Source of the DNA: a virus
Direction: 5' to 3' (one strand)
IMG/VR virus record: IMGVR_UViG_3300037264_003395
Coordinates: 1-26,624 of that record
Length of the DNA stretch: 26,624 nt
Shown here: one piece after another, positions 2,199-19,454 of the stretch
Numbering within the stretch: position 1 is the stretch's first letter
Layout: each line of letters starts with the position of its first letter
Made by a program: the position numbers and the translations under genes
The notes under the pieces: model-generated
Database searches by the model: none
What the model was told of the DNA's origin: nothing
Seen by the model: only the letters and a program-made list of their open reading frames with translations

Positions 2199-2780
2199 GT
2201 GGCCTCGGAGACCGGCATCGTTAACCGCGGCCTGATCGCGCTCGGCGAGTCGCCGATCACGTCGCTCGACGACGCGGTGAAAGCGGCCCGACTCGCCAAA
2301 GAGATCTGGCCCGAGATCCGCGACGACGTCCTGCGCCTTCATCCGTGGAACTGCGCCTCGCGCCGGGAAGCGCTCGCGGCGCTCGCAACGACACCGGCCT
2401 TCGAGTGGGCCTACGAATACTCCTGGCCGGCCGACGCGCTGCGCATCCTCACCGTCAACGACGAGGACTGGGCGGCCCGGGTGGGCTGGACCGTCGAGGG
2501 CCGCAAGATCCTCACCGACTGGGCGGCGCCGCTCGAGGTGCGCTTCGTCTTCCGGCAGGTCGACGCCAACACCTACGACCCGCTACTGCGCAGCGCCCTG
2601 TCCGCTCGCATCGCTGTTGAGCTCGCGATGCCGCTCACGCAGGACCGCGGGAAGCGCGCCGACGCAGAGGCGGCTTACAAGCAGGCGCTCGACGACGCCC
2701 GAGGAGTCGACGGCCAAGAAGAAGAGGTGATCGAGGACGATTCCGACTCCGAGTGGGTCGGCGCGCGCTATCGGTCCTAG
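2199..2780 (+). CDS. Tail tubular protein A-like (T7 gp11 position)
   Basis: 193 aa, GTG start. In T7 the gp11 ring attaches the tail to the portal and carries the nozzle; this protein is almost the same length (gp11 is about 196 aa). It has the family-typical opening: a short helix with RGLIALGESPITSLDD, the KAARLAKEIWPEIRDDVLRLHPWNCA block, then W-containing strands (EWAYEYSWPADALRI), and an alanine-rich helix near the end (ADAEAAYKQALDDAR). There is no Shine-Dalgarno; the start lies 3 nt after the previous stop, so translation is probably coupled. The next gene, tail tubular B, is its known partner. Confident on family and synteny. Confidence 0.88.
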   Translation: MASETGIVNRGLIALGESPITSLDDAVKAARLAKEIWPEIRDDVLRLHPWNCASRREALAALATTPAFEWAYEYSWPADALRILTVNDEDWAARVGWTVEGRKILTDWAAPLEVRFVFRQVDANTYDPLLRSALSARIAVELAMPLTQDRGKRADAEAAYKQALDDARGVDGQEEEVIEDDSDSEWVGARYRS

Positions 2781-2782
2781 CT

Positions 2783-5041
2783 ATGGGCCGCGCTTCCCCG
2801 ATGCAGGTCGCCTTCAATGCCGGCGAGTGGCACGCCGCTCTCGACGGCCGCGTCGACCAGGAGCGCTACGGCTCGGCGTGCCGGCGCCTCCGCAACTTCT
2901 GGCCGCTCGTCGAAGGGCCCGCCGAGCGCCGCGCGGGAACGCGCTACGTCGCCGCGGCGAAGACAACCGCGCAGCGCCGGGCTCTGCTCCCGTTCCGCTT
3001 CTCGACCGAGCAGGCCTACACGCTCGAGCTCGGCGAGAACTGGATGCGCTTCTACACGCAGTCGGCGCAACTGCTCGATCCCGGCACCGGCCTCCCGCTC
3101 GAGCTCGTGACGCCCTGGACCGCCGCGCAGGCCCGGGCGCTGCAGGTGCGCCAGTCCGCCGACGTGCTCTTCATCGCGCACCCCGACGTCGCGCCGCAGA
3201 AGCTCTCGCGCACCGGCGCCTCGGCGTTCACGCTCGCGCCCTACGCGCCCGACTGGGCGCCCTTCCGGGCCGAGAACACGACGGAGGCCTTCAAGATCCA
3301 GGCGAGCGCGAACACGGGCGTCGGCATCACGCTCACCGCGACCGGCTTCACGTTCTCGGATAACGACGTCGACCGACTCGTGCGCCTCCGCGAGATCCCC
3401 GAGAGCGAGCAGCCGCAGTGGGCCGCGGGCGTCGACATCCACAGCATCGACACCGGGACCGGCTCTGCGGTGAACGACCGCGTGCACTGGGAGAGCAACG
3501 TCTACCGGCTCGACAACAAGAACGCGAAGACGGCCTCGGGCACGCGGCCGCCGATCCACACGAACACCGACGGCGTGACCGAGCTCGACGGGAAGTGGAG
3601 CTGGGAATACATCCACTCGGGCGCTGGCTATGCGCGCATCACGGCCGTCGCGGTGGGCGGCGCGACCGCGACGGCCGACGTCGTGCACCGGCTGCCAGAC
3701 TCGGCCGTCTCGGCGTCGACGTTCCGCTGGGCATGGGGCGCGTGGGATCAACTTTCGGGCTACCCGCGTGCGCTCGAGTTCTTCGAGGAGCGCCTTTGGT
3801 GGGGCGGGACGCGCGCCGATCCGGACTTCTTGTGGGCGACGCGGCCGGGCGGCGCGTTCGACAGCTTCCGGCCCGACCGCACCGAGGAAGGGGCGCTCGG
3901 GTTCCGGCTGCTCTCGGGCGAGGCCGTCACAATCGAGACGCTCTCGGCGACGCGCATTCTCTCGGTCGCGACCTCGGCGGGCATCTTCCCGGCCGCAGGC
4001 CGCGACGCGACGCTCGCAGTCTCGATCGACAACGAGCTCTCGCGCGATCGCCAGGTTTCCTACGGCGCGCGCGCGGGCGTGCAGGCGCTCGCCGTCGACA
4101 ACGTCTCGCTCTTCGTGCAGCGCTCGGGGCGCTCGCTTCGCGAGGTGCTCTTCTCGGACGTCGAGCAGACGTTCCAGGCGCCGGACCTAACGATCCTCGC
4201 GGCGCACCTCGTGCGCGGCGGCATCCGGCGCATCGCCTACGCGCAGGAGCCCTACCGGCTGGTGCTCGCGGCGTGCGAGGACGGCAAGCTCGCGGCGGCT
4301 CTTTACGACCGCGCGCAAGAAGCGCTCGCCTTCTGCGGCGTCGAGATCGGGGGCGCGGGCGTCTTCATCGAGGACGTCTGCACGATCCCGCACCCCGACG
4401 GCGACAGTGACCAGATATGGCTCGCGGTCGAGCGCACGTTCATGGGCACCGTCTCGCGCTCGGTCGAGTTCATCGAGAAGGGCGCTTTCTTCGAGCCCGC
4501 GCTTGAGGACAGCTTCTACGTCGACGGTGGGCTCTCCTACGACGGACCTCCGGCGACCGTCATCAGCGGGATCCCGCACGAGGGGCAGATGGTCTCGATC
4601 CTCGCGGACGGCGCGCGCGTCGCCGATCGCGTGGTTTCCGGCGGGCAAGTCACCCTCGACGAGCCGGCGAGCGTCGTGCACGTCGGGCTGCCGTACTTCT
4701 CGCGCCTGGTCCCGATGCGCCCCGAGCCGGGCGATTCCTCGGGCGCCGCGAGCGGGAAGACGAAGCGTTGGTCGCACGTCGTTCCGCGTCTGCATCACAC
4801 CGGCGAGGGACTCTTCTACGGGAGCGCCGCCGCCGGCGCGGTGCTCGACGAGCTCGTCTTGCGCGACCGCTTCGATCTCCTCTCGACCGCCGTGCCGCTG
4901 ATCGGCGAGGCGAGCGACTCGGCGCCGCTCCCGTGGCCGGACGGCTACAGCCAGGACGGTTTCATCGCCTTCGAACACCGCGGGCCGACGCCGTGCACGA
5001 TCGTCGCGCTGATGGGCGAACTCGTGACAGGGGCGAAGTAG
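2783..5041 (+). CDS. Tail tubular protein B-like / nozzle protein (T7 gp12 position)
   Basis: 752 aa from the ATG at 2783, which begins 2 nt after the preceding stop; the longer frame from 2753 would overlap the tail tubular A gene and its extra residues look like readthrough of that gene. The protein forms the tail nozzle through which DNA leaves. Family marks are the N-terminal GRASPMQVAFNAGEW region, CRRLRNFWPLVEGPAERR, RFSTEQAYTLELG, FFEERLWWGGT and the beta-rich remainder, including DNVSLFVQRSGRSLREV. The length is close to T7 gp12 (794 aa). It is followed by a 53-nt gap with an AT-rich island before the internal virion genes. Confidence 0.9.
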   Translation: MGRASPMQVAFNAGEWHAALDGRVDQERYGSACRRLRNFWPLVEGPAERRAGTRYVAAAKTTAQRRALLPFRFSTEQAYTLELGENWMRFYTQSAQLLDPGTGLPLELVTPWTAAQARALQVRQSADVLFIAHPDVAPQKLSRTGASAFTLAPYAPDWAPFRAENTTEAFKIQASANTGVGITLTATGFTFSDNDVDRLVRLREIPESEQPQWAAGVDIHSIDTGTGSAVNDRVHWESNVYRLDNKNAKTASGTRPPIHTNTDGVTELDGKWSWEYIHSGAGYARITAVAVGGATATADVVHRLPDSAVSASTFRWAWGAWDQLSGYPRALEFFEERLWWGGTRADPDFLWATRPGGAFDSFRPDRTEEGALGFRLLSGEAVTIETLSATRILSVATSAGIFPAAGRDATLAVSIDNELSRDRQVSYGARAGVQALAVDNVSLFVQRSGRSLREVLFSDVEQTFQAPDLTILAAHLVRGGIRRIAYAQEPYRLVLAACEDGKLAAALYDRAQEALAFCGVEIGGAGVFIEDVCTIPHPDGDSDQIWLAVERTFMGTVSRSVEFIEKGAFFEPALEDSFYVDGGLSYDGPPATVISGIPHEGQMVSILADGARVADRVVSGGQVTLDEPASVVHVGLPYFSRLVPMRPEPGDSSGAASGKTKRWSHVVPRLHHTGEGLFYGSAAAGAVLDELVLRDRFDLLSTAVPLIGEASDSAPLPWPDGYSQDGFIAFEHRGPTPCTIVALMGELVTGAK

Positions 5042-5094: not shown

Positions 5095-5634
5095 GTGGGC
5101 TGGTTCATCCCGATCGCGACGATGGCCGGCAGCGTGCTCCAAGCCTCGGCCTCGGCCCAGCAGGGCGAGAACGAGGCCGCCGCGGCCCGTTACAACGCGA
5201 AGCTCAGCGAGGAAGAGGGCTACGACGAGGAGCGCCGGATCCGCCTCGAGGGCTCTCGCCTGCTCGCGCACCGGCGCCAGGCGAGCCGCAAGGCTGGATT
5301 CGAGCCCGCAGAGGGGACATCGCTCGACGCGCTGGTGAACGACGCCGAGATGATCGAGCGCGCGGCACTCGGCGCGCGCCGGACGGGGATCTCCGAGGCG
5401 AGGCTGCTGCGCGCTACCGGCCGCTCGGCGGTGCGTTCGGGCAATCTCGCGGCCGCTGGCACTGTGCTCGCGGGGATCGGGAACGCCGGAGCGACCGCCT
5501 ACGGGCTGCGCTACCCGACGGGCGCGCCGCTCGGGACCGGGGCGCCGCGGGTGGTTCCGCCAGGGTCTCGGGTGGTTCCGCCGCGGGTGTACACGCAGCC
5601 GGTGCCGCCGTACATCAGGCCGCGGCAGGCCTAG
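5095..5634 (+). CDS. Internal virion protein (T7 gp14 position)
   Basis: 179 aa, GTG start with AAGGGGG 4 nt upstream. T7 gp14 is about 196 aa, is ejected first and forms the outer-membrane pore. This protein has the usual layout of that group: a short hydrophobic N-terminus (GWFIPIATMAGSVLQASASA), a long charged helix (Gln/Glu/Arg-rich, ENEAAAARYNAKLSEEEGYDEE), a second hydrophobic Ala/Gly segment (NLAAAGTVLAGIGNAGATAYG), then a Pro-rich tail with a repeated RVVPP motif. It stops directly against the ATG of the next internal protein. The call rests on position, length and architecture; sequence similarity to gp14 itself is weak. Confidence 0.72.
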   Translation: MGWFIPIATMAGSVLQASASAQQGENEAAAARYNAKLSEEEGYDEERRIRLEGSRLLAHRRQASRKAGFEPAEGTSLDALVNDAEMIERAALGARRTGISEARLLRATGRSAVRSGNLAAAGTVLAGIGNAGATAYGLRYPTGAPLGTGAPRVVPPGSRVVPPRVYTQPVPPYIRPRQA

Positions 5635-7182
5635 ATGCCGCAGCGCATCCCGATCCTCGGAGCGCCGGCGCCTGAGCGCCAGCCGCGCGCCACGCCCGAG
5701 GTCTTCGGCGATCCTCGCGGGCAGGCTGCGCTCGGGCGCGGGCTCGAGATTGTCGGCGAGACGACGGCGCGCGTCTTCGACAACTACCACCGCACCCGTG
5801 CGCAGCGCGGCGCGGTGCAGGCCGGGATCAACTTGCGCAAGGCCGCGATGGAGGCTGCCGAAGAGAATGATCCGGTGAAGGCGGGCGCTCTGTTCGATCA
5901 GGCGCGCGCCGTGGCGCGCGAGAACGCGAAGAGCGCGCTCGGCGACCTTCCGAGCGGGTACTCTGACCTCTTCGAGGATCTTGTCGACGAGGACGAGGCG
6001 ACGGTCGCCTTCGAGGTGGCGTCGAAGATTCGCCGGCAGGGCGTCGAGAATGCAGGCGCCGAGGCGGACTGGTCGCTCGCACAGCTCGCCGACCGCGAGG
6101 CGCAGGCGCTCACCCCGGAATCCGCGGCTGCGACCCGCCAGCAGGCCGAGGACATCATCGGGACCGCGCAGCACTGGGACACGGCCGACAAGGTGAAGCG
6201 CATCAACACCTACCGCGACACCGTCGCCGAGGCTGCGCTCTCCGCGGGGCTCGCGGACGATCCAGCTGCTATCCGCGCGCAGCTGACAGCGCGCGCCGGC
6301 CCGTTCGCCGAGATGCCACAGAAGTGGATCGAGGCGGCGGAACTGAAGGCGCAGCGCCGCGTCGAGACGCTCGAGCGCGCCTCGCGCGCCGAGTTGCGCC
6401 GGGCAGAGGCGGACGAGAGCCGCGAAAGGACGGAGCGCAAGCGCGCGGCGCAGTCGGCGCTCGCGACCAAGGGGCGGCCTGACGGCCCGGGCGTGACCGT
6501 CGAGGACGTGCTCGAGCACGTCGATGATCTCGCTGGCGAGGCGGATTACTGGTTCTCGGTCGCAGGCCGCGGCGGCTTCATCGTCGACCCCGAGGCGATG
6601 ACGCCGACGAAGCGCGCCGCAGCCACCGCAGAGTCCGCGCGGCTCGAGGGGCTGACGCCGGCGCAGCTGGCCGAGGAGCCGCTCAATGCGGCGCTGCTCG
6701 GCCCCGAGCTCGACAACTGGCGCAGCAAGCAGGAGACGCTGCGCCAGCGCCGGTCCGACATCCCGCGCGGCTACCTCGTGCGCGCGAATGCGCGGCTCAA
6801 GCAGATGCAGCTGGATCCGTGGGGCTTCGATGACGCGGTCCTCAACAATGGGCTCGAGGACTCGACGCTGTTCTGGCAGGAGGCCGAGCTCGCGGTGCTC
6901 GACTGGGCCGATCGCGAGAAGAAAGATCCCAACCCGACCCAGCAAGAGGAGATCCTCGACCAGCTGGTGCTCGACATGGCGGCGAAGCGCGGAACCGACA
7001 TCACGCCGGGGCCGCATCTCGGGATCAATCCCCGCAACCGTGCGCACGCCGTGCGCACGGAAAGCGCACGACCACTGCCTACCGACGAGAGGGAACTCGT
7101 TTCTGGGCAGCTTTACGAGACTCCGCAGGGGGTTTTTCTCTTCGACGGGGAGGGTTTTGTTCCTCCCAGCACTGAAAAATGA
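5635..7182 (+). CDS. Internal virion protein (T7 gp15 position)
   Basis: 515 aa, mostly alpha-helical and rich in Ala, Glu, Arg and Asp. The ATG abuts the preceding TAG with no spacer, suggesting coupled translation. The N-terminus is Pro-rich (PQRIPILGAPAPERQPRATP) followed by helices; the C-terminus has a GVFLFDGEGF element just before the stop. In T7 the gp15 ring sits between gp14 and gp16 and forms the periplasmic tunnel. No enzymatic motif is visible. The last ~100 nt are markedly lower in GC than the rest and hold two inverted repeats that may influence the next gene. Its stop overlaps the giant gene's start (ATGA). Function is inferred from order. Confidence 0.75.
   Translation: MPQRIPILGAPAPERQPRATPEVFGDPRGQAALGRGLEIVGETTARVFDNYHRTRAQRGAVQAGINLRKAAMEAAEENDPVKAGALFDQARAVARENAKSALGDLPSGYSDLFEDLVDEDEATVAFEVASKIRRQGVENAGAEADWSLAQLADREAQALTPESAAATRQQAEDIIGTAQHWDTADKVKRINTYRDTVAEAALSAGLADDPAAIRAQLTARAGPFAEMPQKWIEAAELKAQRRVETLERASRAELRRAEADESRERTERKRAAQSALATKGRPDGPGVTVEDVLEHVDDLAGEADYWFSVAGRGGFIVDPEAMTPTKRAAATAESARLEGLTPAQLAEEPLNAALLGPELDNWRSKQETLRQRRSDIPRGYLVRANARLKQMQLDPWGFDDAVLNNGLEDSTLFWQEAELAVLDWADREKKDPNPTQQEEILDQLVLDMAAKRGTDITPGPHLGINPRNRAHAVRTESARPLPTDERELVSGQLYETPQGVFLFDGEGFVPPSTEK
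7038..7060. repeat. Perfect 10-bp inverted repeat, 3-nt spacer
   Basis: CCGTGCGCAC (7038-7047) and GTGCGCACGG (7051-7060) are exact reverse complements around GCC; each arm holds the 8-bp palindrome GTGCGCAC. It lies inside the end of the gp15-position gene (encoding AHAVRT), about 120 nt before the giant gene. It could be a hairpin or a two-site binding element. Confidence 0.6.
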
Positions 7183-7200
7183 GCGAGAAGCTCACTTTTT
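7175..7200 (+). terminator. Terminator-shaped hairpin covering the giant gene's start codon
   Basis: The sequence AAAAATGAGC-GAGAA-GCTCACTTTTT folds into a 5-bp TGAGC/GCTCA stem, with an A-C mismatch and four A-T pairs below it, ending in T5. It has the shape of an intrinsic terminator, and its left arm contains the ATG (7179) of the 12.3-kb gene and the preceding stop. No Shine-Dalgarno lies within 15 nt upstream of the start. Either partial transcription termination or blocking of unassisted initiation would be consistent. Confidence 0.45.
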
Positions 7201-10200
7201 CCGATGTGAGTAAGCCTGCGCAGCAGGTGCGCAGCGGTGCTGCGCAGCCGTCCAAGCTCAGCTTCGCACAGGTGAGCAGCGCGGAGCCTCCGCAGCCGCG
7301 AGTTCTCGACGAGCAGTTCCGCGGGTTCGCCGGCCTCCCCGAACCTGACGCGTCGCGTCAGGCCGACGATGAAGCGATCGGACGCCTGCGCGGCGCGTCC
7401 GAGGAGGAGATTCAGGCGGACCTCGCGGGTCAACCGCGCGAGCTGTCGATGACGGAGAAGCTGGTCATCGGGAGGGATGCCAGGCAGCCTCGCAAGAGCG
7501 CAGCCGCCGTCGCCTACGAGCAGGCGCGCTCACTCGGCTTGCCGGCGGACGTAGCGCTTCGCCAGGGCGAGCGAGTCGATGCGCTCTACCGCGAGCGGCG
7601 GTCGCAGCTGATCCTCGAGCGCGGCGACCTCGCGCGCTCGCGCGCCTTCCGCGAGGTGTTTGGCGACCCATCGCGCGCAGCGCTCGTCATGCCCGAGCTC
7701 GAGCACTGGGTGGCGCTCCGCGATGCGATGGCTGGGCAGGGCGCGGTCTCGGACACGCAGCGCATCTCGCGCGAAGTTGCCGAGGTGGGCGCGAGCTTCG
7801 GGCGCGGGCTCGGGCAGGGCGCCACGAACGTCGAGAGCCAGCTGCTCATCTGGAAGGTTCTGAAAGGCGATCCCGAGGCGACAAAGCAGTGGGAGGCGCT
7901 GCGCGCGTCCGAGCAGCAGTCACCCCTCGGCGCGCTCACGAAGGCCATTCGGCTCGATCCCAAGGAGAGCTTCGCAGCGCGCGTGCTCGGCGAGCAGATC
8001 CCGATCTACGGCGCGATGGGTGTGGGCGGCGCCGGCGGCTTCGCAGTCGGCACTGCCGTCCCGATCGGCGCCGGTGCGATCGTCTCGACTGCAACCGGTA
8101 ACCCCGGCGCGCTCGCGATCGGCGGCGCGATCTCGCGCTTCACCGGCCCGCTGTTTGGCCGCGCCGGCGCGGGTGCGGCGGCGTATCCGTTCAACCTCGA
8201 CGAGAGCTATGGGTTTCTCGTCGGGACGACCTATCAGCGTCCGCTCGCTTCGGGCGCAAGCGTCACGGAACCGATCCCACACGAGGCGCTCGTCGCCGCG
8301 GCGCACCTTGCGGCAGTCGCGAAAACCGGGCTCGACCTGGTGGGCATCGAGGCCTTCCTCTCGTTCGCCGGCGCTCGCACGGTGTTCTCGGCGCCTCTGG
8401 CCGGGCTCCGCGAGCGCCTCGGCGCGCTCGTTGCGTCCCGACCCGAGCTGATCCCCGCGCTGATGATGGCGGGGCGCTACCTCGTCTCGATCGGCGCCGA
8501 GGCGCAGACCGAGGACTGGCAGACGGCCCTCGACTACGCCTTCACGGCCGGCGTGCAGGCCGTCTCTGAGGGGCGACCTGCGGGCGAGGTGTTCGCGCGC
8601 GCGACGGCTGCCGACGAGACGCCCGAGGCTCTTGCTGCTCGCAGCGATGCGTTCCGCGCAGCGGCGATCTCGACCGCAGTGTTCGGTCCGGCCGCGGCGA
8701 TCCTGCCGGCGAACATCCGGCGGGCAGCGCGCATCGAGCGCTCTCGCGCCGACCGCGAGCGCCTCGACGCGATGGTCAAGGCAACGAGCAAGCTCACACT
8801 GCATGGCGAATCGCCGACCGCGTTCCGAGAGCTTGCGCAGCGCCTTGGTGCCGAGTCCGGCGTCGATACCACCTACATGAGCCCCGACGAGCTGCTCGAG
8901 CTCTTTCAGGACGACGCCGAAGCATTCCGCGGACTGCCCGAGCCGGTGCAGCGCGAGATCGCGGCGGCGCTCGAGCAGGGGCGCGACGCGAAGCTGCCGC
9001 TCGGGGTTACGCTCTCGGTGCTCGCGGCGCGCTCGCAAAAGGAGCCCGCCAAGGGAGCGGCCGGTGACGATCGCACTGGGGCCGCGCCGCGAGCACGCCT
9101 CACCCCGACGCAGCTGACCGAAGAGGAAGAGCAGGAACTCCTCGGGGATCTGGCGCAGCCCGACGACGCGCTTGCGACTCCGCGCGCTCCGCTGATTCCG
9201 CCGGCGGCTGAGGTGCAGTTCAAGCGCTACCGCGAGGAGCTCGTCTCGGCTGCGCACTCGCCGAACGACAAGCAAGCGGCCGATGCGATCGCGACGCTCA
9301 TGCGGCAGGCGACGCTCACCTACGCCGCGCGCCGCGGGATCTCGGTCGAGGAAGCGATCGCGCGCATGCCTCGCCTGCGCTTCCAGGGCCGCCAAGGCTC
9401 TGGCATCGCGCCCGCGCATCCGGCGCTGCTGGACGCTCCGCTGCGCGACGTGCCGGGCGAGCAGCGGCTCGCGGCCATCAAGCGCGCGGTCGTCGATCTG
9501 CGCAACCCCGTCGCGTTCGAGGCGAGCGTCAAGCATCCGATCCTCTCGCTCCTGAAAGGGCACGGCGGCGTCGATCCGACGAGCACGCTCGGCGGCGAGC
9601 TCCGCAACCTCGGCGTCACGAATCGGACGCTGCCGGGCATCTTCCGCCGGCGCGGGACCAAAGGCAAAGCAGGAAGAGCGGTTCCGGGCACTGCCGCGAT
9701 CGACACGCTCAACAAGGACGAATACCCCGATCTCTTCGACGGCTTCCCGGTGCAGGAGGGGACGAACTACATCGAGTCGAATGCGATCCTCGAGGCGATC
9801 CGCCGCGAGCTCGCCGGCGATCCGATCCTCTCGCCCGAGGAAGCGGGCACGCGGACGGCGCTCGAAGAGCAGCGCGCGATGCTCCAGGACGCTCTCGCCG
9901 AGGCGAATCTCGACCTCGCGCAGGTCGACGACGAGACGGCCGCGCAGGCGCTCTACGCGATGGAGCGGCAGGGGCTCGCCGACGAGCTGTTCCAGGGCCC
10001 GATCACCGAGGGAGGAGTCGAGTATGCGCTGGCCGATGCTGACCGACGAGACGATTCGCAAGTGGCTGAAAGCGGACCGGATGCCGGCGTATCGGTCGAG
10101 GTCTACGACGAGAAAGCGGCGCCGGCCGCGAAGGTGCTTCCGCGCGCGGCGCGCGTCGCGCTCGTCCAGACGGGCACCTTCCGCACCGCGCTGACCCGCG

Positions 10201-13200
10201 TCATCTCGGCCGAGGACGTGGCGCACCTGGTGGCCGAGCTCCGCAAGGATCCGCAGGAGCAGTTTCTCGCGGTGATTACGGGCGCGCGCGGCAAGGTGCT
10301 GCGCATCGTGCGCGTCAGTCGCGGCACCGTGTCCGCGTCGCTCGTGCACCCGATGACGACGCTCTCGCCGGTGTTTCAGGTCGAGGGCGCCGCGAAGGTT
10401 TGGCTCGTCCACAATCACCCGAGCGGAGAGGCGTCCCCGAGCCGCGAGGATCACGAGATACACGACCGGCTGCGCCGGGCGCTCAGCGGCTCGGGCATCG
10501 AGCTCGCGGGCGCCCTCGTCGTTGCGCCTGGTGGCCGCGCAGCCGAGATCGAGATGGGCCTCGCGATGGGAGGCTCCCGCGAGTTCAAGATCCCGGCGAA
10601 GCGCCGCGACCGCGTCGCGGGCGTGTTCGAGCGGCGGTTTCGAGCGATCGGCGACGCGAAGCCGCTGCGCGCGAGCGACCCTGAATCTGCGCTGCGTGCA
10701 TGGCACTCTCTCTCGCCAGAAGGCGCGCCGGGCATTCTCTTCTTGAACACGCGGCAAAAGGCCGTCGGCACGCTCTACCTCGAGCCTGACGAGATGAAGC
10801 GCCTGCGCACGGGCGACCCGAAGCGCGGCATGGGGGCGATCCTCCGCGAGGCGGGTGTGCGCAACGCGACGGCGATGATCGCCTTCGTGCCGAAGGCGGA
10901 CCTTCGCGGCGCTGCCCAGAATCTCGCCGGCTTCGGGAAAGTGATCGGGCTCCCGCTGCTCGATGCGGTCTCGAGCGATCCCGGGGAGTACGTCTCGGCG
11001 CGCGAGCAGAATTGGCTCGGCGCCGGCGAGACGTTCTTCCAGCCGCTCTTCAACCGCGGCGAGAAGGGCGAGACGGTCCGAGAGATCAAAGTCACGTCGA
11101 ACAAGAGCCGTCTCTACGACCTGCTCGGCCCGACGATGTACGACAAGCCGCTTGTTAACGCCGCGACCCGCGAGCTGTTGCAGAACGCCTTCGACGCCGT
11201 GAAGGCGGCCGCGCGCCCGGACGGCAAGATATTGCTCACGCTCGACCGCGCGGCGCGCACGCTCACGGTCGAGGACAATGGCATCGGCATGAGCGCCGAA
11301 ACCGTCGAGGAAGCGTTCTTCAAGATCGCCGGCACCGATAAAGGCGACCTCGCCATCTCGCAGCGGTCGGGTGGGCTCGGGCTCGCGAAGATGGCCTTCC
11401 TATTCGGCTCGGAATGGGTGGACCTCGAGACGGTGCGCGGCGAGGTCCGCGTAAAGGCGAACGCGACGAGCACGACGATGCGCAACGAGGAGCCGATCAC
11501 CCTGCACTCTTCGCCGGCGCCCGGAGTCCCGTCCGGGACGCGCGTCACGGTCAAGATCCCCGCCTCGTTCGTGAACAAGCAGGGAGAAACCACAGCGATC
11601 CAGTTAGAGCCTTGGGTGGTTCGCTCGGTGCTCGAGCAGCCGCTCATCGGCAACGTCGAGGTGTCGCTGAAAACGGTCGACCCGCACGCCCGGGACTTTG
11701 TTGAGGTGATGCCGACGGGGCGAAACCTCTCGCTCGAGACGCGCGCCGCCTTCGTTACGACGGTCACCTTCGACTGGGGATCGGCGGACCTCTACATCAA
11801 CCCGACGCCGCAAGACTACGCGCCTTTCCGGGTGCTCTCGGCCGGGCTCTATCAGTTCCACCACTTCGGAGCGAACGGCGAAAACGCCGTGATCCTCGAC
11901 ATTCACCCGAACGTCGACCCGCTCGACCCACGGTATCCGTTCAACAACACGCGCGACGGCTTCCGCAAGACGATCGACGCGGACATCAAGGCGGTCGAGA
12001 ACTTCCTGTCCGCGCGCAAGCTCGCGCGCGCGCTGCGCGAGGAATCGAAGTCGTTTGTCGACGTGAAGGCCATGCCGTATTCGCGGCTGGACGACGCCGC
12101 GCCGGTCGCGCCCGACTTCACCGATGCGGGACTGCGCCAGCTCGCGGACATCGAGATCCCGGTCGCGAAGAGCCTAAGCGGCGCGGCTTTCAAACAGGAG
12201 TCCGAGCGCCGGGTCGCGGCGTCGATGAAGTCGAACACGCCGGAGGAGCGCGTCGAGGCCTACGCCGTCGACCCCGAGACGCTGCTCTATCACAACAACA
12301 CGACGGGCGACTACCTCGGCGGAACGCCCGAGGAGGCGCTCGCGGCGCGCACGATGTTCGCGCAGATGGGCTCGTTCGCCTCCGACTTCAAGGACACGAT
12401 CGCCGGAATGCCGGGCTGGGGCGACGCACGCAATTACGCCGTCGGCATCTCGATCGACAAGGGCACCCCGCCGAAGCCCGGTTACAGGGGCGTCAATATC
12501 AACGTGCCATTCAAGGCATTTTTCCTGAACCCGCTCGCGCGGCACTCTAAGGGCGCCGGCGGTGCGGTCGCCGAGTTCTGGCATATCCTTCGGCACGAGG
12601 CCGTGCACGTCCGCGTGCGCGACCACGATGCGGAGTTCGCCGGCTGGCAATCCAACTTCGACGCCGAGATCGGAGACGCGGGGTTCGAGGAGCCACTTAA
12701 GGCGCAGCTCCGGGCGCTGGTGCATACACACTGGCGAACGCTCGAAAGACTGAGGGAGCTCTATGAGTCCGATCCTACTAAAAATCGTGCGCCGAGCCTT
12801 AAAGGCGCCGCTGCCCGAGCACGAGAAGCGCGAGAACGTGGAGATCATGCTCTTGGTGAACGCCGAGGGCCTCCGGTCTCACGGCTTCCCGGAGACGCAG
12901 ATCGCGGAGTACGAGACGGCGCTGCGCGAGGTGAAGGCGATGACGGACGAGGAACTGAACGAGCTCGCGATGTCCTAGCAGCGGCGTTCTCGCAGGCGTT
13001 CCAGGGCTCCCCCTCCAAGAAGCTGATCGGCGGGAAGCTCTCGGACTCCTACATCGGTACGGGCGAGAACACGCGCGGGCAGGGCTGGGGGCACTACCTC
13101 ACCTCGATGCGCTCCGTCGGCGAGTGGTATCGCCGGACCCTCGCGCACGACCGCACGGAGATGACCTACCGCGGCTCGGCGATCGCGCAGGTCGGGCCCG

Positions 13201-16200
13201 GGATTGTGCGCCGGCACTTCGAAGAGATCGGGCGCTACGAGCGGATGAGCAGGGAACACAAGCAGGACGGGAGCGCCGTCTCGCTCGAAGTTGCCGAGCG
13301 CGCAGACGCCGCTGCAGCTCGATTGCGCGAGCCCGCCGCAATCGCGGAGGGTGCGCGCCGCGAGGCGCTCTCACTGCTTGCCGGCGTGATCGACCGCGGC
13401 GTCGCTCCCGCCGCCGCGATCACCTCGGAGATCGAAGGGCGCCACCTGACGCTCATGCGCCAGCGCGCGGATCTGTACGAACGCCGCGCGCGACTCGCGA
13501 AACTCGGCGGTGAGAAGGCGGCATCGCTCGACCTGCTTCGCTACCGCGAGCTCGAACTCGAGGCCGAAGACGCGCTACTCGCGGCACTGCGCGAGATCGA
13601 CGCCGAGGACTTCCACGTCGAGCGGACCGGGGTTCTGCTCAAAGGGCAGCCGCTCGAAGAGCACAACACGGGGACGCTCGAGACGGAGGTGGTCACGGCG
13701 CGCGGCGACGAGCTTCGGCGCAAGCCGGTGCGTCGCTATTTGACGCGCGAGGAGGCCGAGGATCTCGCCCGTAGGTCGAACGTCGTCGGCGGCGCCTACG
13801 CGGGCATGACCGTCGAGCAAGATCGTGAGATCGGCGACTGGGTCGTGCTCGAGGCGCCGTCGACCGACGAGGACATGGCCGCGAAGGTGCGGGAGCGCGA
13901 CCTCGCGCGCTCGCAGCTCGTCGACCACGCGCGGCAGGTTTCCGCCGCCGAGATCGGCTCGTTCATGCAGGAGGGCCGCGATGGCGATGCGCTGTCAGCC
14001 GCCCACGCGCACGCCGAGACGCGGAAGAAGTGGAAGAACGCGCAGGAGAGGAATCAGGCCGACGCCGTCGCTTGGCGCACGACTTCACGCGAGCGCGCCG
14101 CCCGCTTCAAAGAGGCGCTTGCAGCGCGCGAGCGCGGCGAAGCGATTCCTTTCGGGACGACGCTGGACGCGAGCGGCGACCCTAGTTCCTCGCGGAACGC
14201 GGCTGCGCTGGTCTACATCCTTCGCATCCAGCAGGACGCCGTCGACGCGGCGCGCGTGGCCCAGAGCTTCGCCGGAGTCGCCGAGACTTACCGGCTGCTC
14301 GTGGAGGCTGTGGATTCGCTGCACCTCGAGGACGTGACATACGTGCAGCCGGGCAACGTGCGGCGGTTCGAGATCCCCGACGAGACGGACCTGCTCGCGT
14401 GGAACAAGACGCTCGCCGAGCACACGCCGGAGCTGCTCGAGAAGCTCGCGCCCGCGCTCGAGAAGGTCGGCATCACGCGCGAGACGCTCCCCGAGCAGAG
14501 CGGGCGCGATCTCTACTACGCGCTCGAGGACTCGTTCGCGCCGGACTACACGGGCAACCGCGGCCGTCATCCCGGTGCGCAGGAGGCGAGCCAGTACCTC
14601 CTTTCGCTCGGCGTGCCGGGGCACTCGTATATCTCGAACTCGCGCAACAAGAACTTCGTGCTCTACAGCGGCGACGCCGCGCAACTCGAGGAGACGTACT
14701 ACCAGGGCCCGCGCCAAACCGGGCTCTTCGCCGGCGCCGGCGAAATCAGCCGCGAAGCCAAGCGCCTGCTCGAGCACCTGAAAACCGCCTCCGACCGCAC
14801 CGTCTCGGCCATCGGCGCAGCGCTCGAGCTTGCAGATCCGAACGCCGTCGCCGACGAGCTCGCCGAGGAAGGCCTCGCGACGCTCACCGCGAGCGACCTG
14901 ACCGCGGACCCGCTCGGGCGGCAGGTGGCGCTCACCAAGGCCGGGCGCGAGCGGCTCGGGCTCGATCGCCGAAGGGACGACGGGCAGCAGACGCTTTTCC
15001 AGCCGGAACGCGTCGAGGATCCGCTCGTCTCTCCGGAGCAGGAGGAGCAACTCGACGAGCTCGACATCGGTGTCGACCGCGCACCCAAGCGCGCCTCGCG
15101 CGACCGCCTGCGTGCGCTCTATCGCAGTCTCGCTCGGACCTCGGACGATCCTGTCGCCGCGCTCTACGAACGTGAGTCCTACAGCCCCGCGCTGCGGCTT
15201 TCGAGTGGCGAGGTGGTCTACCTGCTCGGCGCGGACATGCAGCACGCGACGATCCAGCGAACGCTGGACGAGATCGGCGTCGAGGGCTCGACGCGCGACG
15301 GTTTCTATTCGCAGCGCGGCGAGTTCATCACGCGCGAGGATCTCGAGGACCTGCTCGGGGATAGCGACGACTCTTTCGCGGCATCCGGCGGCCGCGGCTC
15401 GATCACCTTCTCGCCCGATCAGCGCGAGGCCATCGTCCGCTTCTCGGCAGCCTCTGACCTCTCGACCGCGCTGCACGAGCTCGGCCACTACTACACGCTC
15501 ACGCTCCTGCGAGAAGCCGACGCCCTACGCGAGCAGGAGCCGGGCGCCGCCTGGGAGCAGCAGGTGCTCGCCGATGCCGATGCGCTGCTGAAAGCCGTCG
15601 GCGCGGAACCGGGCGACACGGTTACGAGCGAGCAGGCCGAGCAGCTCACCGATTTGTTCCTCGCCTACCTCCGCACCGGCAAGGCTCCGAGCGAGGCGCT
15701 GCGCAGCGCCTTCGGCCGCTTCCGCGAGTGGCTCGTCTCGCTCTACCGCTCGGTCCGAGACCTCATCGGGAAGGAAGCCCTCCCCGACGACGTGCGCGCC
15801 GTCTTCGACCGCCTCCTCGCGACCGACGAGGAGATCGCGCGCCAGGAGGGCGACGCTGCACTCGGCTCGATCTTCGCGCCGGGCGAGGTGACGCCCGAAG
15901 AGCAGGCGACGCTCGAGGCCGCGATGGCGAAGGCGCGCGAGCGCGTGACCAATCAGGTCGACCGGGCTCAATTGCTCGCGATGGCGAAGCAGCGCGGAAT
16001 CTTCGAACGAGTAGAGGCCGAGCGCGACCGCAAGGAAGCCGAGGTGCGCGAGTCGATCGAGGCCGAAGTCGCACGCGACATGGCGCGGGAGCCCGTGTGG
16101 CAGGCCGACCACTACCTGCGCACCGGGCAGTTGCTCGGGCGCGAGACGCCGGCGGAACTCCCGAAAGTGAAGCTCTCGCGCGCGGGTCTCTACTCTCTAT

Positions 16201-19200
16201 TCCGCGAGGACACGCCGGCGGGGCAGGCGATCAAGGAAGTCCCGACCGGGCAACGCTCGTGGCTCACCGCTTCGAAGGACGGCGTGCACCCGGACACGGT
16301 GGCCGAGCAGTTCGGCTTCGCGACGGGCGCCGATCTCGTGCGCGCGCTGCTCGCCGCGGGCTCAAAAGAAGCCGGCAGCCGCGAGCGCGTCGCCGCCGAG
16401 GAAGTGAAGCGCCGCCTCGCCGCGGCCGGCCGCCTCGCCGCGGGCGAGCTCGAGGAGCGCGTCCTTGCAGCGCTCGCGGGCGACTCGATGGCCGACTGGC
16501 TCGAGGTGCAGGACAAGATCCTGCACGCGCAGATCGGCGACGGTCCGACCCCGCTGCAAGCCCTTCGTCATCAGGCCGAGCGCATGCTCTCGGAGACCAA
16601 GGTCGGCGACGTGCTCGCGAACCGCGCCGCGCACGACCGCTCGACGCTTCACCGCGCGACCGCCGAGCGCGAGCAGCGCGCCGCGCGCAAGGCCTACAAG
16701 GCCGGCGACCGCGAGCGGGCCGCTCTCCACCTGCAGCGCGTTCAGCTGCATCGGCTGCTCGAGCGGCTCAGCTACGCGGCCAAGGACGAGGTGCGCGTCG
16801 CGCTCGATCTCGCGCGCCGTTACCGCTCGAGCGCCGATGTCCGAAAGCGCATCGGGCTCTCGGGCAACGGCCGGCTCGACCAACTCGACGGCGTGCTCGA
16901 GCGCGTGACGCTGAAAGCCGAAAGCGATCCCGAGATCCGCCGGCGCCGGGCGCCCTTCGTCGACTGGGTGCGGGCCCGCATGGCGGACGGCGACCAGCTC
17001 GCGGTGCCGGACCTTCCGGGCGATCCCTCGGATCCGCTCTACGCCGAGCTCCCGCGCTGGATGCGCGAGGGCATGCGCGTCAACTACCGCGAGATGACGC
17101 TCTCGGAGTTCCGCGGGATGCTCGCGACGCTCAAGTCGATCGACCACGCCGCGAAGCGCGAGCTCGAGGTGCGGATCGGCCAGGAGACGCGCCAGCGCGA
17201 AGACGTGCGACGCTCGCTGATTGCCGAGGTGAAAGCCGGAACGCTCCGGCCGGCGACGCGCCTGTCGACCTTCAACCCGCTCCCGTTCCGCTGGCGCAAC
17301 GTCCCGCGCGCGCTCTCCGAGCGCGATGCTGCGCGCCTCGGCGACCGGATGTTCAAGGCCGCGCGCGGCGCCGACGCGATCGCGACCGGGAAGGAAGCGC
17401 TCATCTGGGCGATCGCGAACGCGGACCCGACGACCACGATCTACGAGCTCTTCATCGGCAAGCTCTCGGTCGCCGAGGGCCAGCACGGCGACCGCCTCCG
17501 CCAGATCGTCGAACCGCTCGAGAAGGCGCACTCGCGCTACCTCGACCGGCGGGGCCGCGAATACCTCGACGAGACGCTCCCCGAGAACCGGCTCCAAAAC
17601 CGCTGGAAGCGCGCGCCTTTCGAGGTGACGCGCCGGAACCTGCTGCACGTCGCCTACAACGTCGGCAACGTCGGCCCCGGCTCGAACCTGACCAAGCTCC
17701 TCGGCGGTTACGGCTGGATCTCGGGCGAGATGGCGGACCTCGACCCGGACGGATCTCGGGCGTGGATCGTTGCGATTCTCGACGAGCATCTCGACGCCGA
17801 CGACTGGGCGCACGTGCAAGCGGTCTGGGATCTGCTCGAGTCCTTCCGGGACGAGGTGCTCGGCTTCGAGGAGCGCATGACGGGGCACGCACCCGAGCCG
17901 ATCGAGCCGGCGAAGTTCACGACGCCGAGGACCGGGGTCAAGATGCGCGGCGGATACTTCCCCGTCGTCTACGACCCCTCGCGCTCGGACGCGGCCGCGC
18001 TCCGGCAAGCCGAGGACATCCTGCGCACCGAAGCGATCGGCGTCGGGCGCGTCGAGCCGCGGCATCCCTACACCAAGGCGCGGACGTTCCTACGGTCTCG
18101 GGCGCTGCTCATCGAAGGCGACGAGATCCTCTTCAACCACCTCGAATCGGTCTCGCGCGACCTCGCCTTCCGCGAGGCGCTGCTCGACATCTGGAAGACG
18201 ATCAACCACGACTCGGTGCACGAGGCGATGCGCGCGACGCTCGGCGACGAGTTCTCGGTCGTCTCCTGGTGGAAGCCCTGGCTGCAATCGATCGCCGGCG
18301 AATCGCGCACGCCCTCGGGCCTCAGCTGGTTCACACGGCTCGCCTACGGCATGCACCACCGCGCGGCGGCCTTCACGCTGCTCGGCCGCGTGACCACGAT
18401 CTTGAAGCAGGTGACGGGCGTCTCGAACGCCGTGCAGCAGCTCTCGACGCAGGTGACGGACGAGATGCTGCCAGCGGGCGTGACCGCGCACGTCGGACTC
18501 CGGCACCTCGTCGCGACGCGCGCGCTGATCGCCGCGACCTGGCGCAGCTTCGGCGAGGGCAACCCCGCCGAGCTCCTGCGCGTGCGCGCCGCTGCGATGG
18601 CGAAGTTCCCGGTACTTCGGGGCCGTCTCGAGAGCTACGACCGCGAAATCAAAGAGGTGCGCAACCGGGTCCGGGGGCAGACCGGGCTCAAGGCCGCGCT
18701 CATCGAAGGGGCTGCGAAGGCGATCGCGTGGGTGCAGCTGCACTCGGTCGACATCCCGCTCGCGCTCGCGGCCTACGACCTTGCAAAGGGCCGCGGGCTC
18801 AGCGAGAGCGCGGCGATCGCTTCGGCCGAGACCGCGGTGCGCGTCGGCGAAGGCTCGGGCTCGCGGCTCTCGCAGCCGGTGATCCTGACGACGTTCGACT
18901 CGCTCGCGAGCGTCGTGTTCGGCTTCCTCGCGACTTACCGCTTCACGTCGCTCAACCAAGTGCGCAGCGCGTGGCGGACGACGCACTCGCCGGGCGCTGT
19001 GCTCGGGGCGCTGATCTTCTCGGCCTGGGTGCCGTCGATGCTCGGCGGCACGATCGGGCTCCTCTGGTGGGGGCTTACTGGGCAAGGCGGCGAGCCGCCC
19101 GACGACGAGGATTGGTGGGAGACGGTCTCGCGCAACGGGCTCGAGGGCGTCGCCGACCTAATCCCTGGGATCACGGATCTGCGCCGCTCGATCCAGCGCA

Positions 19201-19454
19201 AGGAGACGCCGACGCCGGGCTCTCTCGGCGTCTTCTACCGCGAGGTCAGCACCGCTCTCGGCGACACGATCGACGCGGCCCAAGGGAAGGAAGACGCGCT
19301 CTTGAAAGCGGGCTTCGACGCCTTGCGGCTCTGGGCGCTCGCCTACGGGCTGCCGGGCGACTACCCGCTGCGCACGATCGAGGACGTGACGACCGAAGAA
19401 GACAAGACGCGCGGCGGCCGCCGTGGTAGTAGTCGCACGGGCGGGGGGCGCTGA
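7179..19454 (+). CDS. Giant polyvalent virion protein (T7 gp16 position), 4091 aa
   Basis: One uninterrupted frame occupies the slot of the T7 ejection protein gp16 (about 1318 aa), so packaging in the virion and injection with the DNA are inferred. In order: Gly/Ala hydrophobic segments (about 277-560); conserved phage polyvalent region (about 770-900); RadC-like JAB domain (986-1130, HNHPSG at 1078-1083); GHKL ATPase (1308-1517); zincin HEAVH (1806-1810); ART-like domain (about 1940-2510); zincin HELGH (2766-2770); long charged helical stretch (2880-3350); polyvalent C-terminal module (3363-4000) with a membrane segment near 3942-3968. No transglycosylase motif is seen at the N-terminus. 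Residues about 1865-1932 are Arg/Gly-rich and look like wrong-frame translation over another ORF. The product may thus be two proteins or contain frame errors. The stop overlaps the tail-fibre ATG. Confidence 0.8.
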   Translation: MSEKLTFSDVSKPAQQVRSGAAQPSKLSFAQVSSAEPPQPRVLDEQFRGFAGLPEPDASRQADDEAIGRLRGASEEEIQADLAGQPRELSMTEKLVIGRDARQPRKSAAAVAYEQARSLGLPADVALRQGERVDALYRERRSQLILERGDLARSRAFREVFGDPSRAALVMPELEHWVALRDAMAGQGAVSDTQRISREVAEVGASFGRGLGQGATNVESQLLIWKVLKGDPEATKQWEALRASEQQSPLGALTKAIRLDPKESFAARVLGEQIPIYGAMGVGGAGGFAVGTAVPIGAGAIVSTATGNPGALAIGGAISRFTGPLFGRAGAGAAAYPFNLDESYGFLVGTTYQRPLASGASVTEPIPHEALVAAAHLAAVAKTGLDLVGIEAFLSFAGARTVFSAPLAGLRERLGALVASRPELIPALMMAGRYLVSIGAEAQTEDWQTALDYAFTAGVQAVSEGRPAGEVFARATAADETPEALAARSDAFRAAAISTAVFGPAAAILPANIRRAARIERSRADRERLDAMVKATSKLTLHGESPTAFRELAQRLGAESGVDTTYMSPDELLELFQDDAEAFRGLPEPVQREIAAALEQGRDAKLPLGVTLSVLAARSQKEPAKGAAGDDRTGAAPRARLTPTQLTEEEEQELLGDLAQPDDALATPRAPLIPPAAEVQFKRYREELVSAAHSPNDKQAADAIATLMRQATLTYAARRGISVEEAIARMPRLRFQGRQGSGIAPAHPALLDAPLRDVPGEQRLAAIKRAVVDLRNPVAFEASVKHPILSLLKGHGGVDPTSTLGGELRNLGVTNRTLPGIFRRRGTKGKAGRAVPGTAAIDTLNKDEYPDLFDGFPVQEGTNYIESNAILEAIRRELAGDPILSPEEAGTRTALEEQRAMLQDALAEANLDLAQVDDETAAQALYAMERQGLADELFQGPITEGGVEYALADADRRDDSQVAESGPDAGVSVEVYDEKAAPAAKVLPRAARVALVQTGTFRTALTRVISAEDVAHLVAELRKDPQEQFLAVITGARGKVLRIVRVSRGTVSASLVHPMTTLSPVFQVEGAAKVWLVHNHPSGEASPSREDHEIHDRLRRALSGSGIELAGALVVAPGGRAAEIEMGLAMGGSREFKIPAKRRDRVAGVFERRFRAIGDAKPLRASDPESALRAWHSLSPEGAPGILFLNTRQKAVGTLYLEPDEMKRLRTGDPKRGMGAILREAGVRNATAMIAFVPKADLRGAAQNLAGFGKVIGLPLLDAVSSDPGEYVSAREQNWLGAGETFFQPLFNRGEKGETVREIKVTSNKSRLYDLLGPTMYDKPLVNAATRELLQNAFDAVKAAARPDGKILLTLDRAARTLTVEDNGIGMSAETVEEAFFKIAGTDKGDLAISQRSGGLGLAKMAFLFGSEWVDLETVRGEVRVKANATSTTMRNEEPITLHSSPAPGVPSGTRVTVKIPASFVNKQGETTAIQLEPWVVRSVLEQPLIGNVEVSLKTVDPHARDFVEVMPTGRNLSLETRAAFVTTVTFDWGSADLYINPTPQDYAPFRVLSAGLYQFHHFGANGENAVILDIHPNVDPLDPRYPFNNTRDGFRKTIDADIKAVENFLSARKLARALREESKSFVDVKAMPYSRLDDAAPVAPDFTDAGLRQLADIEIPVAKSLSGAAFKQESERRVAASMKSNTPEERVEAYAVDPETLLYHNNTTGDYLGGTPEEALAARTMFAQMGSFASDFKDTIAGMPGWGDARNYAVGISIDKGTPPKPGYRGVNINVPFKAFFLNPLARHSKGAGGAVAEFWHILRHEAVHVRVRDHDAEFAGWQSNFDAEIGDAGFEEPLKAQLRALVHTHWRTLERLRELYESDPTKNRAPSLKGAAARAREARERGDHALGERRGPPVSRLPGDADRGVRDGAARGEGDDGRGTERARDVLAAAFSQAFQGSPSKKLIGGKLSDSYIGTGENTRGQGWGHYLTSMRSVGEWYRRTLAHDRTEMTYRGSAIAQVGPGIVRRHFEEIGRYERMSREHKQDGSAVSLEVAERADAAAARLREPAAIAEGARREALSLLAGVIDRGVAPAAAITSEIEGRHLTLMRQRADLYERRARLAKLGGEKAASLDLLRYRELELEAEDALLAALREIDAEDFHVERTGVLLKGQPLEEHNTGTLETEVVTARGDELRRKPVRRYLTREEAEDLARRSNVVGGAYAGMTVEQDREIGDWVVLEAPSTDEDMAAKVRERDLARSQLVDHARQVSAAEIGSFMQEGRDGDALSAAHAHAETRKKWKNAQERNQADAVAWRTTSRERAARFKEALAARERGEAIPFGTTLDASGDPSSSRNAAALVYILRIQQDAVDAARVAQSFAGVAETYRLLVEAVDSLHLEDVTYVQPGNVRRFEIPDETDLLAWNKTLAEHTPELLEKLAPALEKVGITRETLPEQSGRDLYYALEDSFAPDYTGNRGRHPGAQEASQYLLSLGVPGHSYISNSRNKNFVLYSGDAAQLEETYYQGPRQTGLFAGAGEISREAKRLLEHLKTASDRTVSAIGAALELADPNAVADELAEEGLATLTASDLTADPLGRQVALTKAGRERLGLDRRRDDGQQTLFQPERVEDPLVSPEQEEQLDELDIGVDRAPKRASRDRLRALYRSLARTSDDPVAALYERESYSPALRLSSGEVVYLLGADMQHATIQRTLDEIGVEGSTRDGFYSQRGEFITREDLEDLLGDSDDSFAASGGRGSITFSPDQREAIVRFSAASDLSTALHELGHYYTLTLLREADALREQEPGAAWEQQVLADADALLKAVGAEPGDTVTSEQAEQLTDLFLAYLRTGKAPSEALRSAFGRFREWLVSLYRSVRDLIGKEALPDDVRAVFDRLLATDEEIARQEGDAALGSIFAPGEVTPEEQATLEAAMAKARERVTNQVDRAQLLAMAKQRGIFERVEAERDRKEAEVRESIEAEVARDMAREPVWQADHYLRTGQLLGRETPAELPKVKLSRAGLYSLFREDTPAGQAIKEVPTGQRSWLTASKDGVHPDTVAEQFGFATGADLVRALLAAGSKEAGSRERVAAEEVKRRLAAAGRLAAGELEERVLAALAGDSMADWLEVQDKILHAQIGDGPTPLQALRHQAERMLSETKVGDVLANRAAHDRSTLHRATAEREQRAARKAYKAGDRERAALHLQRVQLHRLLERLSYAAKDEVRVALDLARRYRSSADVRKRIGLSGNGRLDQLDGVLERVTLKAESDPEIRRRRAPFVDWVRARMADGDQLAVPDLPGDPSDPLYAELPRWMREGMRVNYREMTLSEFRGMLATLKSIDHAAKRELEVRIGQETRQREDVRRSLIAEVKAGTLRPATRLSTFNPLPFRWRNVPRALSERDAARLGDRMFKAARGADAIATGKEALIWAIANADPTTTIYELFIGKLSVAEGQHGDRLRQIVEPLEKAHSRYLDRRGREYLDETLPENRLQNRWKRAPFEVTRRNLLHVAYNVGNVGPGSNLTKLLGGYGWISGEMADLDPDGSRAWIVAILDEHLDADDWAHVQAVWDLLESFRDEVLGFEERMTGHAPEPIEPAKFTTPRTGVKMRGGYFPVVYDPSRSDAAALRQAEDILRTEAIGVGRVEPRHPYTKARTFLRSRALLIEGDEILFNHLESVSRDLAFREALLDIWKTINHDSVHEAMRATLGDEFSVVSWWKPWLQSIAGESRTPSGLSWFTRLAYGMHHRAAAFTLLGRVTTILKQVTGVSNAVQQLSTQVTDEMLPAGVTAHVGLRHLVATRALIAATWRSFGEGNPAELLRVRAAAMAKFPVLRGRLESYDREIKEVRNRVRGQTGLKAALIEGAAKAIAWVQLHSVDIPLALAAYDLAKGRGLSESAAIASAETAVRVGEGSGSRLSQPVILTTFDSLASVVFGFLATYRFTSLNQVRSAWRTTHSPGAVLGALIFSAWVPSMLGGTIGLLWWGLTGQGGEPPDDEDWWETVSRNGLEGVADLIPGITDLRRSIQRKETPTPGSLGVFYREVSTALGDTIDAAQGKEDALLKAGFDALRLWALAYGLPGDYPLRTIEDVTTEEDKTRGGRRGSSRTGGGR
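8007..8190 (+). other. Hydrophobic Gly/Ala-rich segment of the giant protein
   Basis: Residues about 277-337 are almost free of charge and rich in Gly, Ala, Ile and Val (for example GAMGVGGAGGFAVGTAVPIG). Further hydrophobic helices follow (AHLAAVAKTGLDLVGIEAFL and a segment around ALMMAGRYLVSIGAEAQTED). This layout is common near the N-terminus of large phage ejection proteins and suggests membrane insertion during DNA entry. Confidence 0.5.
10134..10568 (+). other. RadC-like JAB/MPN metalloprotease domain in the giant protein
   Basis: Residues about 986-1130. The motif HNHPSGEASPSRED places the zinc ligands at H1078, H1080 and D1091, with the RadC-type SREDHEIHDRL continuation. The preceding GTVSASLVHP matches the strand-helix that comes before the zinc site in RadC. 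E1020-region EQF would supply the upstream glutamate. JAB domains of other families cleave ubiquitin-like or other isopeptide bonds; the activity here is unknown. The zinc ligands are intact, so the domain is probably active. Confidence 0.8.
11100..11730 (+). other. GHKL (Hsp90/MutL-type) ATPase domain in the giant protein
   Basis: Residues about 1308-1517 carry all Bergerat-fold boxes: the N box ELLQNAFDAV with N1336, the G1 box EDNGIGM with D1366, and the G2 box SGGLGLAK (G1398-G1401). A lid with FKIAGTDKG precedes G2. The closest class could be MutL/Hsp90/MORC-like rather than a histidine kinase, because no phospho-acceptor domain is visible. ATP-dependent clamping or remodelling is inferred from the family. 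Confidence 0.8.
12510..12768 (+). other. First zincin metallopeptidase motif in the giant protein
   Basis: Residues about 1778-1863. HEAVHVRVRDH gives H1806, E1807, H1810 and H1816, that is HExxH plus a third histidine at the spacing of metzincins (HExxHxxGxxH), but with Val in place of the Gly. DAEF follows, as in phage polyvalent peptidases with HDxxF-like tails. The downstream helix (LKAQLRALVHTHWRTLERLRE) is the last part of the giant frame with convincing coding bias before the frame switch. Confidence 0.65.
12763..12978 (+). CDS. 71-codon ORF out of frame inside the giant gene (real coding signal)
   Basis: The ORF lies in a different frame from the surrounding 12.3-kb ORF, but the coding signal here belongs to it: only 8 of its 71 codons end in A or T, against 42 of 64 codons of the giant frame between 12786 and 12977. 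The ATG has GGGAG (12753-12757) 5 nt upstream. The product is a natural-looking, charged helical protein (start MSPILLKIVRRALKAPLPEH, end TDEELNELAMS) with no family I recognise. Either it is a true small gene separating two proteins, or it is part of the giant polypeptide that lost its frame through an insertion near the A5 run (12780-12784) and a deletion near 12976. No stop in the giant frame marks either edge. Confidence 0.6.
   Translation: MSPILLKIVRRALKAPLPEHEKRENVEIMLLVNAEGLRSHGFPETQIAEYETALREVKAMTDEELNELAMS
12981..14706 (+). other. ADP-ribosyltransferase-like domain with a long insertion
   Basis: Residues about 1935-2510. FQGSPSKK, then IGTGENTRGQGWGHYLTSM and VGEWYRRTL, parallel the xHGSPH...IGTGEGAQAYGxGLYFA...VAxxYR pattern common in phage and mobile-element polyvalent proteins, which resembles the PARP YxFGxGIYFAD core. 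The second half is also present: RRFEIPDETDLLAWNKTLAE and QEASQYLLSLGVPGHSYIS...NFVLYSG. About 350-400 residues (coiled, charged) are inserted between TYRG and TYVQPG. Catalytic competence cannot be judged: the H-Y-E triad is not clear by eye. Confidence 0.55.
15399..15846 (+). other. Second zincin metallopeptidase domain in the giant protein
   Basis: Residues about 2741-2890. STALHELGHYYTLTLL places the HExxH at H2766-H2770. The following AEQLTDLFLAYLRTGKAPSEALRSAFGRFREWLVSLYRSV and VRAVFDRLLATDEEI segments are the usual continuation of this phage/mobile-element zincin family, and glutamates in the EQAEQLTD region are candidates for the third ligand. Such peptidases may process the polyprotein itself or host proteins. 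Confidence 0.72.
17266..19451 (+). other. C-terminal polyvalent module of the giant protein with a membrane segment
   Basis: Residues about 3363-4090 resemble large-polyvalent-protein-associated C-terminal regions: helical segments around KEALIWAIANAD and GYFPVVYDPSRSDA, LLGRVTTILKQVTGVSNAVQQL, then AIASAETAVRVGEGSG and FLATYRFTSLNQVRSAWR. A hydrophobic stretch AVLGALIFSAWVPSMLGG continuing to LLWWGL (about 3942-3968) could be one or two membrane helices. The Arg/Gly-rich tail (RGGRRGSSRTGGGR) ends the protein. Confidence 0.55.

Follow-up and report, generated by a model that had tools for sequence, protein, structure and literature searches.

In phage lambda, the spanin gene Rz1 is wholly embedded in the +1 frame of Rz; both products are functional, and the outer protein is mutationally silent in the stretch that overlaps (PMC5295617). 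Polyvalent proteins of phages and conjugative elements are huge multidomain proteins that combine RadC-like, HExxH and other domains and are thought to be delivered with the DNA (PMC5512222). The words overlap, HSP90 and histidine kinase are absent from the latter survey, in which we found no description of a nested gene, and among the listed results of searches of the open-licence literature on polyvalent proteins, nested genes and ejection proteins, none described the arrangement reported here.

In this study, we analyzed a whole IMG/VR virus record of 26,624 bp (the window), in which a first-pass annotation had noticed that the coding signal leaves a giant open reading frame (ORF) for a small one and then returns. 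Our analysis very strongly supports a small +1-frame gene overprinted on the linker-coding stretch of one continuous giant gene, an arrangement that needs no frameshift. The features of the locus are the following:

420 to 1298: major head gene
2753 to 5041: tail gene
5095 to 5634: internal virion protein gene
7179 to 19454, + strand: giant host gene (4091 aa), uninterrupted across the nested gene; polyvalent protein, apparently in the internal-virion-protein slot
10206 to 10529, + strand: RadC-like JAB domain of the giant protein (Pfam PF04002, E = 8e-22)
11217 to 11564, + strand: GHKL (HATPase_c) domain of the giant protein (Pfam PF02518, E = 4e-6; Hsp90 by profile)
12594 to 12608, + strand: HEAVH, the HExxH motif of a putative zincin metallopeptidase module, kept in all aligned relatives
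12752 to 12758, + strand: Shine-Dalgarno (SD) sequence GAGGGAG of the nested gene (duplex energy -7.7 kcal/mol; a strong SD is conserved in relatives)
12763 to 12978, + strand: nested +1-frame gene for a 71-aa predicted four-helix protein (from GC3, SD and AF2; same-place +1 ORF in relatives)
12780 to 12800, + strand: KNRAPSL in the giant frame, beginning at the A5 run and conserved across the start of the overlap in the alignment
12801 to 12977, + strand: Arg/Gly-rich linker of the giant protein, the stretch on which the nested gene is overprinted; linkers of low complexity occupy this place in relatives

The internal virion protein gene is followed by a gene for a 515-aa protein without identity, the giant gene and a tail-fibre gene, and from this order we infer that the giant gene occupies the internal-virion/ejection protein slot of a podovirus-like genome. 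Its product resembles polyvalent proteins in joining several unrelated effector-type domains (RadC, GHKL and HExxH) in one phage protein, the HExxH region sitting just upstream of the frame switch. The C-terminal part is homologous to BPP-1 Bbp10, Cobetia phage Carin1 gp32, the giant internal virion protein of Vibrio phage MZH0603 and others, and the gene, like that of Bbp10 and similar proteins, lies ahead of tail-fibre genes; phrog_9880 matches the N-terminal, middle and C-terminal parts. The protein is best described as putatively polyvalent/ejection-type, and its packaging and delivery into the host are suggested by gene position. From about 12,990 onward, the giant frame contains GSPSKKLIGGKLSDSYIGTGENTRGQGWGHYLT (13080-13130 region), which appears to resemble the start of polyvalent-protein ADP-ribosyltransferase-like domains; the region gave no Pfam or PHROGs match. 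A 945-aa ORF on the minus strand opposite the giant gene (window 7920-10757) is probably a side effect of codon bias and high GC.

The small gene shares with Rz1 its complete embedding in the +1 frame of another phage gene. Unlike Rz1, an outer-membrane lipoprotein acting in lysis, its product is modelled as a soluble four-helix protein; the 71 aa include no cysteine, and the spanin pattern of a lipobox cysteine in the nested product and a membrane segment in the outer one does not apply. The host gene differs from Rz in being a giant virion-protein gene, and the probable role differs as well. Unlike the Bbp10-type proteins, the giant protein carries a GHKL-HExxH module for which tblastn found no match in the phage and plasmid collections, and no nested-family ORF was detected in the three Bbp10-type cases fetched. 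The GHKL ATPase domain is shared with T4-type RIIA, and RIIA lysis-inhibitor proteins are the nearest phage matches of this domain (window 11217-11564). The similarity is confined to the GHKL part and does not extend over the whole protein; the two RIIA proteins that were read have neither the HExxH module nor a nested relative. The succession of rIIA and a small gene in Vibrio phage 424E50-1 was considered as a parallel and rejected: its 82-aa gene between rIIA and rIIB (5912-6160) is unrelated to the nested family, and its RIIA lacks HExxH.

The composition switch reported by the first-pass annotation is real and far above chance, and its counts proved exact. A/T-ending codons make up 8/71 in the small ORF and 42/64 in the giant frame (12,786-12,977), while the maximum among the 3,892 other 64-codon stretches of the same ORF is 17/64. 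When all alternative-frame ORFs of at least 60 aa inside the giant ORF were compared, giant-frame GC3 collapsed only here (0.36 versus 0.81 to 0.93 elsewhere), and alternative-frame GC3 at the nested ORF was high (0.88). Each third position of the giant frame is a second position in the small frame, where an ordinary protein forces A/T. Openness of the window's +1 frame is in itself unremarkable at 69% GC (P = 0.60). The annotation was also right that the small frame is coding and has its own ribosome-binding site: GAGGGAG is followed by CTCT and the nested ATG, and a small ORF with its own start thus lies wholly within another ORF in a different frame.

We gathered relatives with profiles of the GHKL-HExxH module, at first 70 IMG/VR loci and then more. 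A +1 ORF lies at the identical place in 84 of 84 readable IMG/VR records carrying the upstream GHKL-ATPase/HExxH module, the window included (65 loci of the first batch, with the window, plus 21 of the second, minus the duplicate L174 and the doubtful match L176). The second batch was fetched after the prediction had been set as a test, and it shows the same-place ORF too. The nested ORFs comprise about 60 to 100 codons directly 3' of the HExxH module, start with ATG, GTG or rarely TTG, and occur in loci ranging from 34% to 70% GC. Composition that flips out and back is what two indels would give, and sequencing errors or a compensated mutation pair had been among the options first proposed. 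This explanation is excluded for practical purposes, with a negligible probability, by the occurrence of the same ORF in unrelated contigs from many metagenomes and by the constraint seen in both frames. The recurrence of the small gene at one position in over 80 related phage sequences indicates that the double coding is real, with neither sequencing error nor ribosomal slip behind it.

Searched alone in IMG/VR, the small protein or the window flanks returned none or one relative, and the small protein had no significant match in the phage and plasmid collections. Matches in genome contigs were tried as relatives of the module and set aside: most cover the GHKL part only, come mainly from Clostridia and are probably cellular Hsp90-type proteins. 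Among 385 sampled alphaproteobacterial genomes, the class of an Aureimonas genome, one had a strong match to the HExxH module (G258:C54:11038-11421, E = 1e-39), on a contig that ends before the nested region.

The giant frame is likewise open in 84/84 records, in L055 with TAG as a sense codon. This locus was considered as an exception with a closed giant frame and rejected as such, because all giant-frame stops in its nested stretch are TAG. In the same phage (L055/L174, IMGVR_UViG_3300028832_000411, 2-1735), the module has an open frame of 577 codons only if TAG is decoded as an amino acid, and the same code gives a 1,918-codon ORF after it; the phage appears to read TAG as sense. By codon resampling, the joint log10 P of an open giant frame given the +1 protein is -82 (37 lineages) and that of an open +1 frame given the giant protein is -29 (38 lineages), values that are somewhat overstated since lineages are taken as independent.

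These results bear on the possibility that two genes flank the small gene, the long ORF being open by chance and its downstream part separately started. Such an organization is suggested by L163 to L165 and L055, in which the giant ORF stops not far beyond the nested gene and a separate ORF lies downstream; in L163 (2863-7998) and L164 (2815-7944), the module gene stops shortly past the nested ORF and the next long ORF starts at once. Even in L163 to L165, however, the giant frame remains open through the entire nested ORF, and the absence of stops from the window and nearly all relatives is the result that gave the -82 above. In the window, moreover, as the first-pass annotation stated, the giant frame has no ATG, GTG or TTG from 12,978 to the motif IGTGENTRGQGWGHYLT. 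We therefore consider flanking genes very improbable. From the initial proposal of two genes with a small one between them, the independent small gene stands; its place, however, is inside a single continuous giant gene, open in every relative.

Substitution patterns show that both frames code. Among 20 relatives, the identity of giant-frame fourfold sites is 85% within the nested ORF and 36% in each flank; third positions disagree in 23% of comparisons within the ORF, as against 62% in the upstream and 63% in the downstream flank. Along the sequence, third-position differences fall from 0.56 upstream to 0.39 over the SD and 0.05 after the nested start, and return to about 0.6 at the stop. The pattern of identity inside versus the two flanks was repeated in independent subclades, namely low-GC A2 (0.92 vs 0.45/0.50), A3 (0.87 vs 0.60/0.66), L166/170/188 (0.88 vs 0.42/0.34) and L163-165 (0.84 vs 0.58/0.59). 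Wobble sites of the +1 frame, at 62% identity, exceed the 36% level of free sites, which shows constraint on the giant frame as well. Purifying selection on both frames is thus seen in the relatives, and in the window itself through composition only.

Nested starts show the marks of independent initiation. An SD of -5 kcal/mol or stronger precedes them in 30 of 38 lineages (79%), compared with 14% of 4,211 control ATG/GTG codons in the same frame (P = 7e-14); for one lineage, L020, the scored position was two codons 3' of the likely start. Starts of the marine-type clade read aAGGAGttcnna-[A/G]TG, L006, L058 and L158 have no clear SD, and the +1 frame often has a stop just a few codons upstream of the nested start. 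Programmed frameshifting, another of the options first put forward, would instead make the small frame a domain of one polypeptide through a +1 shift at A5 and a -1 shift near 12,976. The AAAAA at 12,780-12,784 would permit re-pairing, and the lack of a giant-frame start ahead of the downstream motif would fit as well, but we found an independent start and no conserved shift site. Third-position constraint begins at the SD and start codon and not upstream, the nested starts bear both elements in relatives, and the nested stop (CTC GCG ATG TCC TAG) shows no apparent slippery sequence. The giant frame is also conserved beyond A5, and together these observations make frameshifting highly improbable.

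The first-pass annotation had described the giant frame as turning to noise at this run. This is not so, as KNRAPSL runs past A5 and matches KNRAGSL, KNRGRSL or KPRGNRF in relatives. Homologues of the Arg/Gly-rich segment had been named as evidence that would speak against a frame switch; a match exists at its edge only, in KNRAPSL, and beyond it the relatives have their own Gly/Ser/Arg-rich linkers. The segment used as a query found no relatives. With a small gene nested in a continuous giant gene, some ribosomes on the mRNA would translate the 4091-aa protein, and others would initiate internally at 12,763 to yield a free 71-aa protein, presumably of four helices.

Profiles built from part of the nested family recovered most of the remaining members against 6,096 decoy ORFs; L006, L162 and L171 were missed by the family profile. 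The small protein of the window scored E = 0.61 against the profile of the other members (rank 2 of 6,097) and E = 18 when the combined profile was used; its small cluster, compared with the main family by hhalign, gave only P = 0.008. The window copy is too diverged for a significant match and was therefore placed by position, frame, start, SD and composition. AF2 gave confident four-helix models for L051 (pLDDT 91) and for the window product (pLDDT 95, with family members in its alignment). Fold searches of the PDB with the small protein returned no significantly similar solved structure, and Pfam and PHROGs hold no family for it; phrog_951 (E = 0.03) and other weak PHROGs/Pfam matches were dropped as not common to the members. 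No annotation exists for the family; a gene wholly contained in another long gene tends to be hidden by standard gene callers.

Overprinted viral genes often carry unrelated accessory roles. A real nested gene could accordingly encode something unrelated to the giant protein, such as a regulatory or anti-defence protein that merely emerged within a permissive linker, a possibility to which we give nearly an even chance; disordered linkers tolerate overprinting. This explanation does not account for the strict linkage of the nested gene to the 3' side of a single module, whichever domains and architectures follow. It is also at odds with the failure to find a free-standing close relative: a scan for the small protein yielded 32 loci, all on contigs already known to carry an embedded copy, and close relatives were found embedded only. 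The GHKL-HExxH module is always the upstream neighbour of the nested gene, including in loci where a separate gene encodes the downstream part, and for this reason the nested product would most likely bind the module.

We accordingly see a reasonable, if not quite even, prospect that the product is a physical partner of the GHKL-metallopeptidase module, a role predicted from gene linkage. On present evidence, this and an unrelated passenger are about equally likely. As a partner, the nested product would bind the module as an assembly factor or an inhibitor, and as an inhibitor it would silence the module before ejection carries the giant protein into a new host. More tentatively, it may be a dedicated partner encoded in the effector's own gene, an inhibitor or packaging chaperone that would be left behind at ejection and leave the module active in the next host.

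The nested family occurs strictly in association with a single module of giant ejection-type phage proteins and provides a clean case in which to study genes nested out of frame in tailed phages. Its product would be a likely candidate for the missing partner of a class of injected multidomain proteins.
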